Shown piece after piece: positions 18,402 to 20,613 of a stretch of DNA of 22,654 nucleotides. The position numbers were made by a program, and so were the translations under genes. This DNA is from a virus: positions 1 to 22,654 of the IMG/VR virus record IMGVR_UViG_3300007735_000495, one strand, 5' to 3'. The first letter of the stretch is position 1; the number at the start of each line of letters is the position of its first letter. The notes beneath the pieces are model-generated. The model made no database searches, was not told the DNA's origin, and saw nothing but the letters and a program-made list of their open reading frames with translations.

Positions 18402-18623
18402 ATGACAACACAAGAAAAATTCGACCTAATCCCGGCACATTATCTGCCGAAGTTTATCAATGATGATAAAACATTAATTTGTATATCAACACCGCATTAC
18501 GTTGGTATAGATATTCAAAAAGCAACGATAAAAAATTATCAAGGTTCAGTTGAAATTTGCATTGATAACACATCATTGCAATTAAGCAAAATAATGAACT
18601 CCGTAACTATCAACATCCTATGA
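18402..18623 (+). CDS. Small phage protein of unknown function
   Basis: 73 residues, starting MTTQEKFDLIPAHYLPKFIN. Preceded by AAACCT directly before the ATG, a start context shared by several genes here. No motif beyond an alternating beta-type C-terminus (GSVEICIDNTSLQLSKIMNS). Its TGA overlaps the next ATG (ATGA). Confidence 0.6.
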   Translation: MTTQEKFDLIPAHYLPKFINDDKTLICISTPHYVGIDIQKATIKNYQGSVEICIDNTSLQLSKIMNSVTINIL

Positions 18624-18793
18624 AACGACCACACTCCGACAGAAATCAAGGGCGCAAGTTAGAACCAAAAGCCGTGCGTATTCGCATACCCGAAATGTAC
18701 CGTGACCACATCCGAGCCGAGATAAAACGGCTCAAAGCTACTGCCGAATACAAGGCGGTGGTGAAGCGGATTAATGATGAGGATGGGGATTGA
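18620..18793 (+). CDS. Small basic protein, possibly DNA-binding
   Basis: 57 residues, MKRPHSDRNQGRKLEPKAVR, then IRIPEMYRDHIRAEIKRLKA and an acidic end RINDEDGD. A basic N-terminal arm, one short strand (VRIRIP) and two helices are reminiscent of ribbon-helix-helix proteins, as for the gene at 3164-3343, but helix spacing is atypical. It starts in an ATGA overlap with the previous gene. The TGA overlaps the first base of the leftmost attC-like element region, so it is the last ordinary gene before the cassette array. Confidence 0.5.
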   Translation: MKRPHSDRNQGRKLEPKAVRIRIPEMYRDHIRAEIKRLKATAEYKAVVKRINDEDGD

Positions 18794-18794
18794 G

Positions 18795-18867
18795 TAACGG
18801 TTTGCAGATACACGCTGTGAGCGTTGGATTGAGGGAGGGAAAATAGCGTGTATGTGCTGTTATACGC
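18795..18867 (+). repeat. attC-like site A
   Basis: TAAC (18795-18798) ... GCAGATACACGCT (18804-18816) ... AGCGTGTATGTGC (18845-18857) ... GTTATACGC (18859-18867). The arms match at 12 of 13 positions as reverse complements. TAAC and GTTA lie outside the arms with unequal spacing, giving extrahelical bases as in integron attC sites. TAAC to GTTA spans 68 bases. The GTTATACGC core is the exact reverse complement of GCGTATAAC in site B. Confidence 0.75.
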
Positions 18868-18899
18868 TGCCTTTATTACTAATTTTAAAAACAAAAAAT

Positions 18900-19118
18900 A
18901 TGAACGCAAAAGAAAAAGCAAAAGATTTATTTTCAACTTTCAGATATGCACTATCTCACAAAGATGCTCCATTAGGAATGTATAAGGATAATATGGCTAT
19001 TCAATGTGCTTTGATGGCAGTTGAAGAAATACTAAACCATCATTCACAAGAACAGGGATTGTATAGAATTGATACATACTATTGGCAACAAGTCAAGTCG
19101 GAGTTGCAGTCTTTGTAA
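18900..19118 (+). CDS. Small conserved Bacteroidota protein carried by cassette 1
   Basis: 72 residues from the ATG at 18900, starting MNAKEKAKDLFSTFRYALSH and ending YYWQQVKSELQSL. The pattern KEKAKDL...F ... QCALMAVEEIL ... YWQ.VK.EL belongs to a small protein family I recognise as widespread in Bacteroidota genomes and phages, without known function. The frame is open upstream to ATG 18852, which would run through the GTT core of site A. The A-rich leader AAAAACAAAAAAT directly before 18900 favours the shorter start. It occupies almost all of the space between GTTATACGC and GCGTATAAC. Confidence 0.75.
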   Translation: MNAKEKAKDLFSTFRYALSHKDAPLGMYKDNMAIQCALMAVEEILNHHSQEQGLYRIDTYYWQQVKSELQSL

Positions 19119-19122
19119 GGTT

Positions 19123-19317
19123 GCGTATAACGGTTTGCGGCTTTGCGTGGTTTAATTTAAAAATGATAAAATATATGAACAGAGAAAAATTAATAAAACA
19201 ACTATTTGTTGGAAAAGTTTCCGAAATAATTGGAACTGAAAAAACAACGGAACTACTAAAAGAAGCTACTATTGCTATTGACGAGATGCTTAAATCACGC
19301 AAAGCCGATGTTAGTAG
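19123..19317 (+). repeat. attC-like site B
   Basis: GCGTATAAC (19123-19131) on the left, GTTAGTAG (19310-19317) on the right. Inside, CGGCTTTGCGTGGTTTAA (19138-19155) and TTAAATCACGCAAAGCCG (19290-19307) are reverse complements at 17 of 18 positions. TAAC to GTTA is 186 bases, long for an attC. The space between the arms contains the start codon and first part of the gene at 19175. Confidence 0.7.
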
Positions 19318-19408
19318 TCAGGTTTGCGAAATCGGAATTACTGAACATAACAAAGGAATATTTCATTTAGGACAATGCCCAAAATGTTATAGTAATAAGG
19401 TTCTTTGA
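19175..19408 (+). CDS. Hybrid frame from site B into cassette 2
   Basis: 77 residues from ATG 19175 (ATG 19163 is an alternative). Residues 1-45 (MNREKLIKQLFVGKVSEIIG, a helical charged region) are encoded between the arms of site B, that is, by DNA belonging to cassette 1. From about residue 46 (GTT core, read as the Val of ADVSSQ) the frame enters cassette 2, ending EIGITEHNKGIFHLGQCPKC then YSNKVL. The CPKC motif is half of a zinc-ribbon-like site. Cassette 2 has no start codon of its own in this frame, so expression depends on the attC-borne start. Whether the fusion is a functional protein is unknown. Confidence 0.5.
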   Translation: MNREKLIKQLFVGKVSEIIGTEKTTELLKEATIAIDEMLKSRKADVSSQVCEIGITEHNKGIFHLGQCPKCYSNKVL

Positions 19409-19417
19409 GCAAACTTG

Positions 19418-19545
19418 CTACTAACGTTATTGGGCTTGGCGAAGTGGCTGAACCCGAAGCTAAATAGAATTACTAAACTTTAAAATTAAAAACGAATGAT
19501 TGATAGAATTACTGAACAGCCATTTTGCCAAACCCGTGTTATGCG
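19418..19545 (+). repeat. attC-like site C
   Basis: CTACTAAC (19418-19425) and GTTATGCG (19538-19545) bound the site; TAAC to GTTA is 120 bases, in the range of known long attC sites. Arms at 19432-19453 and 19514-19535 match as reverse complements at 17 of 22 positions. TAGAATTACT is also directly repeated at 19465-19474 and 19504-19513. Confidence 0.7.
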
Positions 19546-20221
19546 TAGTGTTTTGGTTAATGCTAATTGCCTTGAATATTTACCTACATTAGAAAGTAAA
19601 AGTGTAGATTTTGTATGTATTGACCCTCCTTATGAATTAGATAATCACGGAGGAGGACAAAGCAAAGAAATGAAAAGACAATTAAATGATTTGCACATTG
19701 ATTTTATAAGCAAAGGTTTTGATGTTGAAAATGTATTTACTGAAATTGAAAGAGTAAGTAAGGTTATGAATATGGTTTGTTTTTGTTCAAATAAGCAAGT
19801 TTCTAAAATTATGAATTATTGGGAACAAAAAAAGTATTCAGTTACCTTGCTTGTTTGGGATAAACCAAATCCTATTCCTTTTGGGAACGGAAAGCATATA
19901 AGCAATTTAGAATTTATGGTTTATGTTCGAGGAAAAGGAGCTACTTTTAATAATTTAGGGGTTAATGAACAAAAGAAAACATTTAACTATCCAAGCCCAA
20001 GTAGTTCAAAAAGATTGCACCCAACAGAAAAGCCCGTTGAATTACTTGAAAGATTGATTAAATTACACACAAAAGAAGATGATATTGTGTTAGATTGCTT
20101 TGCGGGTAGTTTTTCAACTGCTGATGCTTGTAAGCGTTTAAATCGTAAATGTATAGCAATAGAATTAGAAAAAGAATATTACGATAAAGGCGTAAATCGT
20201 TTGAGTGGTTCGCTGTTCTAA
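19496..20221 (+). CDS. DNA adenine/cytosine N-methyltransferase (N6/N4, beta-type order) of cassette 3
   Basis: 241 residues from ATG 19496, or 226 from ATG 19541. The conserved blocks are CIDPPYEL (motif IV, residues 43-46 DPPY), HPTEKPVELLERLI, and near the end DCFAGSFSTADACKRL (motif I region; the usual FxGSGTT is FAGSFST here), then CIAIELEKEYY. Motif IV before motif I is the beta-class order of N6-adenine or N4-cytosine enzymes. ATG 19541 lies inside the GTT core of site C and gives MRSVLVNANCLEYLPTLESK, a normal N-terminus. The longer start would add 15 residues from the site. No restriction enzyme gene is next to it, so it looks like an orphan modification enzyme, perhaps protecting phage DNA. 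It is AT-richer than the virion genes, consistent with acquisition. Confidence 0.85.
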   Translation: MIDRITEQPFCQTRVMRSVLVNANCLEYLPTLESKSVDFVCIDPPYELDNHGGGQSKEMKRQLNDLHIDFISKGFDVENVFTEIERVSKVMNMVCFCSNKQVSKIMNYWEQKKYSVTLLVWDKPNPIPFGNGKHISNLEFMVYVRGKGATFNNLGVNEQKKTFNYPSPSSSKRLHPTEKPVELLERLIKLHTKEDDIVLDCFAGSFSTADACKRLNRKCIAIELEKEYYDKGVNRLSGSLF

Positions 20222-20224
20222 CAT

Positions 20225-20362
20225 TACGCATAACGGCATTCAGCTACCCGACAGGGCAGGATTAAATAGCACAAACTTTCAAAATAGCAATACAGATGAA
20301 AATAGCAGAAATGTTCAATAAACTACTGAACCCTGCCTTGCGGGTAGGTGATGTTAGCACTC
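20225..20362 (+). repeat. attC-like site D
   Basis: TACGCATAAC (20225-20234) on the left, exact reverse complement of GTTATGCGTA in site C. GTTAGCACTC (20353-20362) on the right. Arms CTACCCG (20244-20250) with CGGGTAG (20341-20347) and GGCAGG (20255-20260) with CCTGCC (20332-20337). TAAC to GTTA spans 126 bases. A start codon (20296) lies between the arms. Confidence 0.75.
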
Positions 20363-20541
20363 GTTTTTCTCGTGTAAATTACGATAAAAGGCGTTTGCCA
20401 TCACTTTACTTCACACAGGATTATTCAGTTAAAAACCAAGTGTTATTTCTCAGGGGAGAAGAATATACGCCTTATATGTTCAATTATGAACGAATGATTG
20501 ATTTGATGAATGAAGGCGTATTGTCCGAAAATGAGTGCTAA
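20296..20541 (+). CDS. Small protein, cassette 4 (start codon lies inside site D)
   Basis: 81 residues. The first 19 residues (MKIAEMFNKLLNPALRVGD) are encoded by site D, with GTT read as Val20. From residue 21 on (STRFSRVNYDKRRLPSLYFT, then QDYSVKNQVLFLRGEEYTPY) the protein belongs to cassette 4. The body looks like a compact, basic, folded domain but has no motif I recognise. Like the gene at 19175, cassette 4 has no early in-frame start of its own. The stop TAA lies within the AAC core GTGCTAAC of site E. Confidence 0.55.
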   Translation: MKIAEMFNKLLNPALRVGDVSTRFSRVNYDKRRLPSLYFTQDYSVKNQVLFLRGEEYTPYMFNYERMIDLMNEGVLSENEC

Positions 20542-20556
20542 CTACCCGCTACCCGC
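20533..20556 (+). repeat. attC-like half site E
   Basis: GAGTGCTAAC (20533-20542) is the exact reverse complement of GTTAGCACTC in site D. Two tandem TACCCGC copies (20543-20549, 20550-20556) follow and complement the GCGGGTA arm of site D. No matching right arm or GTT core is found downstream, so the array appears to end or be truncated here. Confidence 0.65.
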
Positions 20557-20613
20557 TACTTTCTTTCGCATACACAACAAACTAACCCATAACAAATTAA
20601 AAACAAACAACCT

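Follow-up and report, generated by a model that had tools for sequence, protein, structure and literature searches.

The cassette array and its paired cores

We analysed a 22,654-nt stretch of viral DNA (IMG/VR record IMGVR_UViG_3300007735_000495, positions 1 to 22,654), referred to below as the window. In it, a short backbone gene is followed by four tandem units, each with a hairpin and a gene, and by a fixed terminal element:

18620–18798, + strand: left backbone gene and junction, a 57-aa ORF ending GATGAGGATGGGGATTGA and then the first TAAC box (18795–18798)
18795–18862, + strand: site A, attC-like hairpin of 68 nt at the 5′ end of cassette 1
18799–19131, + strand: cassette 1, 333 nt, site A plus a 72-aa ORF (18900–19118); cores GTTATACGC...GCGTATAAC
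19128–19313, + strand: site B, hairpin with a loop of ~160 nt that holds the 5′ part of the cassette 2 gene
19132–19425, + strand: cassette 2, 294 nt, 81-aa ORF (19163–19408) starting in the loop
19422–19541, + strand: site C, attC-like hairpin
19426–20234, + strand: cassette 3, 809 nt, N6/N4 DNA methyltransferase of 241 aa (19496–20221)
20231–20356, + strand: site D, attC-like hairpin
20235–20542, + strand: cassette 4, 308 nt, 81-aa ORF (20296–20541) starting in the loop
20539–20559, no strand assigned: attI-like fixed end, TAAC followed by TACCCGCTACCCGCTAC, the presumed insertion point; read as attI on the − strand

Five TAAC boxes (18795, 19128, 19422, 20231 and 20539) delimit the units, at spacings of 333, 294, 809 and 308 nt. 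The last of them (20539–20542) is a bare core that runs into the attI-like element, with no fifth hairpin. Three of the four cassettes have their start codon within the hairpin loop, and in cassettes 2 and 4 the core GTT is in frame, read as valine in cassette 2. The methyltransferase of cassette 3 (PF01555, E 5e-31) starts in its loop with the leader MIDRITEQPFCQTRV, bearing out an earlier proposal, made from the sequence alone, that the cargo is small and includes a methyltransferase. The 72-aa ORF of cassette 1 belongs to phrog_21441, of unknown function, and the 81-aa ORFs of cassettes 2 and 4 have no Pfam or PHROG match. Searches of the window for Rfam families and for tRNAs returned nothing.

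That preliminary description had read the segment as an integron-like cassette array because of four reverse-complement core pairs between neighbouring sites, and had named shuffling, covariance search, folding and comparison with related phages as checks. All four pairs are present (GTTATACGC/GCGTATAAC, GTTAGTAG/CTACTAAC, GTTATGCGTA/TACGCATAAC and GTTAGCACTC/GAGTGCTAAC): within every unit, the hairpin's R′ and the closing R″ are complementary. Each core consists of GTTA plus 5–6 unit-specific bases (for example GTTATAC or GTTAGTA). The cores do not obey the 7-bp integron consensus RYYYAAC/GTTRRRY.

We scanned for cassettes with a model that combines TAACG...hairpin...TGTTA with core pairing; an earlier version without the TAACG/TGTTA asymmetry was too permissive. 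The scan recovers the window as an uninterrupted chain of four paired cassettes, and among 1000 dinucleotide shuffles of the window 942 contained no cassette, 58 contained one and none contained more, which excludes chance. Complementary arms, claimed for all four sites, are clear in B, C and D (scores 17.3, 17.2 and 18.4; in shuffled sequence a score of 17 arises about once per 100 windows), and by this score weaker in A, which is shorter (12.3). The arms of site B match perfectly over 12 bp, and sites A and B are both atypical in length. Tandem units of one gene and one attC-type site, as in integrons, are thus found four times in the window, and they recur in hundreds of loci.

Unit boundaries and gene direction

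Homologous segments shared between loci start and finish immediately after TAAC, and no GTT-to-GTT segment was found among those compared. Each hairpin therefore moves with the gene downstream of it. Read on the − strand, the sites (site A included) show TAACA...CGTTA, the canonical attC polarity known from VCR and aadA sites. With the unit boundary on the TAAC side and this polarity on the − strand, the attC lies at the 5′ end of its gene. The integron-type units that had been proposed thus hold, but their boundary is at the TAAC side on the + strand and their genes face the other way from those of normal cassettes. The fixed right end of the array, TAAC followed by TACCCGCTACCCGCTA, is attI-like on the − strand, and it fits the consensus shared by array ends in other loci, TAAC followed by TNNNNNTANNCGCNA.

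We then compared the direction of the longest ORF in each unit, with all sites placed in one orientation. Viral units have 242 ORFs on the + strand against 10 on the − strand, and viral units accompanied by a recombinase have 205 against 5, so that 447 phage units in all follow the reversed direction and 15 do not. In loci from Bacteroidota genomes, 7 units follow the phage-type direction and 103 the opposite one. The canonical rule that a gene reads from attI toward its own attC is accordingly met by 103/110 chromosomal units and unmet in the window and in 447/462 phage units. Among the 447 phage ORFs, 184 begin inside the hairpin, 114 of them with the core GTT in frame. A simpler rule read from site orientation, that genes point toward the recombinase everywhere, was rejected, since ORF direction fits it in phages and not in chromosomes.

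The chromosomal-locus exceptions to gene direction lie in L194, L206, L211 and L243, contigs filed under bacterial genomes that carry reversed, phage-type cassettes. Stretches homologous to viral units are present in L206 and L243, and one in L206 is 92% identical to a cassette of phage locus L123; these four contigs are perhaps prophages, or phage contigs binned with their host. In a phage locus, the second cassette of L055 (L055:4274–4864) has its longest ORF, of 158 aa, on the opposite, chromosome-type strand, and adjoins the cassette that carries the window's methyltransferase.

In filifjonk9-1, the leader MNTNKTQAEQLPQDAV stands ahead of differing protein bodies, and the units at L001:3682–4110 and L001:7158–7436 have this hairpin-encoded leader in common, with different bodies joined at the GTT core. 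A common leader before different bodies suggests that some exchange may also occur at the GTT side, besides that at TAAC.

Site family and linked recombinase

A search motif taken from site C (TTTTGCCAAACCNGTGTTA) matched at least 120 stretches in viral contigs and at least 117 in genome contigs, the latter nearly all from Bacteroidota among the matches listed. In the 2.3 Mb of loci collected, we found ~475 sites scoring at least 16, against 3 in shuffled loci; this excess is partly by construction, because most loci were selected with the site C motif, which itself comes from a phage site. Among 270 adjacent pairs, the R′ of one site and the R″ of the next agree across the gene for 5 nt or more past TAAC in ~70%; for the two cores of a single site the figure is ~3%, and for randomly paired ones 2%. 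The agreement extends 5–6 nt past TAAC and then ends. Complementarity across the gene and not within the site is the integron pattern, and the earlier remark that the two cores of one site do not match holds throughout these related loci.

A covariance model, R2, built only from 35 sites in genome (chromosomal) contigs, recovered sites C (E 3.3e-19), D (3.4e-19) and A (9e-10) on the + strand of the window; C also matched on the − strand, at 7e-4. Site B was not matched in this search of the window, because its ~160-nt loop contains the 5′ part of a gene. In all four window sites the coding strand, which corresponds to the canonical bottom strand, folds better. The DNA fold of site A has a z-score of −2.8, and that of site D −3.3, with 0/200 shuffles equally good. 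Arm mismatches are strongly one-sided (left G versus right A, 391:17 over 242 sites), and polarity is visible as G·T and C·A mismatches; extra bases, which in attC are a conserved feature of the L″ arm, are nearly equal in number on the two arms (58 and 50). Folding and mismatch polarity show the single-strand hairpin, asymmetric spacer and strand polarity of attC. Site C is ~90% identical to the hairpin of Muminvirus phages.

The preliminary description had proposed to look for an integrase in the rest of the genome and for the same cassettes in chromosomal integrons. The window encodes no recombinase. Chromosomal arrays of the same site family, in contrast, lie beside one, and nearly all array-bearing genomes tested encode a TIGR02249-like enzyme that matches the profile in two pieces, without positions ~181–237. 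Both phage and chromosomal arrays adjoin such tyrosine recombinases, IntI-like and without the IntI additional domain. Compared with IntI4 (2A3V), 60 residues (183–242) are replaced by 18. The spacing between GLRxxE and HxLRH is 92 aa in the chromosomal enzymes and 86 aa in those of phages, against 133 in IntI, ~41–47 aa more, and 98 in XerC/D. All 21 aligned members conserve the catalytic R, K, HxxR, H and Y without exception. A predicted structure of the phage enzyme (mean pLDDT 82.6, pTM 0.62) has the integron integrase 2A3V as its best structural match (Foldseek, TM ~0.6). In a tree, IntI, the sampled phage recombinases and Bacteroidota XerC/D each form one group; the chromosomal recombinases do not, and the root is unresolved.

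Linkage between this enzyme and the sites is seen in genomes and within contigs. In 118 sampled Bacteroidota genomes, 46 encode the recombinase (E <1e-40) and 62 have sites found by the model; at least three sites occur in 35/46 genomes with the recombinase and in 8/72 without it (p 9e-13, with no correction for kinship). On shared contigs, the listed sites run in one direction relative to the recombinase in 15/15 loci, with the array at its 3′ end in 12. One chromosomal recombinase gene is in two pieces ~2.8 kb apart with a site nearby (G147:C1:754330–757928), and may belong to an interrupted, decaying integron. We found relatives of one phage enzyme in 182 stretches of viral contigs, and where phage loci carry the recombinase the array lies directly upstream of it in 69/82 loci, with 353 sites on the + strand and 0 on the − strand. 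Contigs bearing the recombinase reach 362 kb. A terminase (PF03237) is present on 8/21 of those tested; for the remaining 13 this marker does not show phage status.

These data bear on whether the window simply holds a canonical integron (CALIN) acquired from the host, with an ordinary IntI recombining its sites. Canonical IntI occurs in 105/395 Bacteroidota genomes, and IntI1 can recombine some phage attC sites (PMC9892861). The sites, however, track the domain-less recombinase that adjoins arrays in chromosomes and phages; with canonical IntI they show no association in the 118 genomes (12/39 versus 31/79, p 0.42, kinship uncorrected), and the phage genes run opposite to those of chromosomal cassettes. 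We consider this origin unlikely. The 105 genomes, counted above the curated cut-off, are more than the literature consulted suggests for the phylum.

Cassette rearrangement, cargo and known systems

Related phages differ in cassettes at one fixed site, as an integron reading had led the preliminary description to expect. The window and loci L005, L007 and L055 have a common backbone and hold 4, 1, at least 3 and 2 cassettes, respectively. The left backbone gene and junction are common to L005, L007 and L055, with a different hairpin after them in each; the window's attI-like end also closes the arrays of L005 and L055, and L007 was matched by the left backbone gene. The methyltransferase cassette is third in the window and first in L055, at 89% identity over the whole unit.

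Such arrays also occur in Flavobacterium phages that were isolated with LMO6 and LMO9 as host strains, and isolates otherwise 98–100% identical differ by single cassettes. A 439-nt cassette with 100% identity between lillamy9-6 and lillamy9-7 lies inside the array in the first and at the attI end in the second, with flanks closed exactly; the ancestral state is not shown. The pairs sniff9-1/9-2, mumin6-1/6-3 and snork6-1/6-2 show exact presence or absence of a cassette, with sniff9-2, mumin6-3 and snork6-2 each lacking single ones. Such differences look like traces of precise excision and of insertion at a fixed attI, as judged from genome comparison and not from experiment. No relatives of the array-linked recombinase were found in the Muminvirus records tested.

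Phage genomes are mosaic and the hairpins here lie between genes, so homologous or illegitimate recombination could shuffle small genes, with the hairpins as mere terminators or short repeats; hairpin families at least 80% similar over ~120 nt would allow some homologous exchange. Yet junctions fall exactly after TAAC between unrelated flanks in otherwise near-identical isolates, core pairs are unit-specific and match across the gene, start codons lie within hairpins, and two sister isolates hold one cassette at different places, the attI-like end in one and the array interior in the other. Ordinary mosaicism is thus very unlikely. Least credible of all are Xer/pdif-like modules, in which a host Xer pair moves genes that lie between XerC/XerD dif sites: in length the recombinase resembles Xer, and its score against NCBIfam NF040815 (XerA-like) barely passes the cut-off, but dif sites are near-constant double-stranded 28-mers, whereas the sites here are long variable hairpins with unit-specific cores that pair across the gene, and phage arrays have their own adjacent recombinase in a clade apart from Bacteroidota XerC/D.

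We therefore hold it very probable that a tailed phage of Bacteroidota carries in this segment an array of integron-type cassettes, formed by an attI-like site and four reversed cassettes, and the reading of the preliminary description is supported by varying content, folding sites, chromosomal arrays beside a recombinase and the exclusion of chance. In the mechanism that we propose, the attI-like site at 20539–20559 would have received the four cassettes, each an attC-like hairpin with its gene. A tyrosine recombinase would act on the folded attC strand and cut at the core (G^TT, on the − strand); a circular cassette would enter at the attI-like end, and excision would be the reverse. The enzyme would be the IntI-like recombinase, without the additional domain, that chromosomes and many other phages encode beside their arrays. 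As none is encoded in the window, we infer that it is supplied in trans, by the host or by a co-infecting phage. Phage cassette genes start at or inside the attC hairpin and read toward attI, the reverse of chromosomal cassettes. The chemistry, like attC × attI activity of the enzyme, is inferred; no recombination assay was performed.

Matches among 75 phage cassette proteins included N6_N4_Mtase (13), DNA_methylase (C5; 3) and Tad3 (2), with single matches to Mom, MT-A70, D12 and Dam; some proteins may be counted under more than one family. Chromosomal cassette proteins, also 75, have no DNA methyltransferase family in their top 25. The Tad3 cassettes encode an anti-Thoeris protein, and the Mom-family cassette a DNA modification protein. 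With cargo that is rich in DNA methyltransferases and includes anti-defence genes, phages probably use the array to exchange resistance against host restriction, a benefit that we infer. A missing methyltransferase has been linked to 3–4 log lower plating efficiency on LMO6 (PMC7077304). Phages would gain a cut-and-paste store of anti-restriction genes, and the Flavobacterium phages of LMO6 and LMO9 offer a cultured system.

By definition, an integron has an IntI with the additional domain and cassettes that read from attI. Judged from sequence, the window would function as an integron does; it falls short of strict membership in that the associated recombinase lacks the IntI domain and the cores depart from the GTTRRRY consensus. 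A large lineage appears to do the job of an integron without that domain, and its recombinase is common in Bacteroidota (46/118 sampled genomes). We think it likely that this is a distinct integron lineage of Bacteroidota and their phages with a domain-less recombinase, complete in some phages including jumbo phages, whose reversed cassettes start at or inside attC and serve as an anti-defence store shuffled during lytic growth.

The superintegron of Vibrio cholerae likewise has ~125-nt tandem hairpins (VCR) of the same polarity, one gene per unit and insertion at the attI end. It differs in that IntI4 has ~41–47 aa between GLRxxE and HxLRH that are absent here, and the phage genes run the opposite way. 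In Spirochaetota (Treponema-type) integrons intI is reversed; the Bacteroidota chromosomal array resembles them in lying at the 3′ end of the integrase gene (12/15), but the enzyme type differs, and the phage array lies 5′ of the recombinase gene. XerC/D-dif and pdif systems share gene modules moved by an Xer-type tyrosine recombinase. In Bacteroidetes proper, the sole finds of IntegronFinder 2.0 were In0 elements and a single complete integron (PMC9024848).

Integron cassettes in tailed phages had been called rarely described. They have in fact been reported, as phage CALINs/integrons with integron attC sites and methyltransferase cassettes and without an integrase (Qi et al, 2023; PMC9892861), much as in the window. 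Gene orientation relative to attC, start codons in the loop and the domain-less recombinase are not described there. We found no description of reversed phage cassettes or of the array recombinase in the literature searched, which included no preprints and few subscription papers; this is apparently a widespread and undescribed kind of integron in Bacteroidota phages.

An attC site of Polaribacter phage P12002L works with IntI1 (PMC9892861), and, like the window, this phage has its sites (three were detected) on the same strand as the genes that go with them. We had expected it to belong to the window's site family, but R2 matches its sites only weakly, and the IntI1 experiment therefore does not transfer directly. 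Two separate P12002L arrays (L326, near 29237 and 37263) end identically, in TAAC followed by AACGGATAAAACAAGT, which suggests that this phage carries one attI-like site twice.
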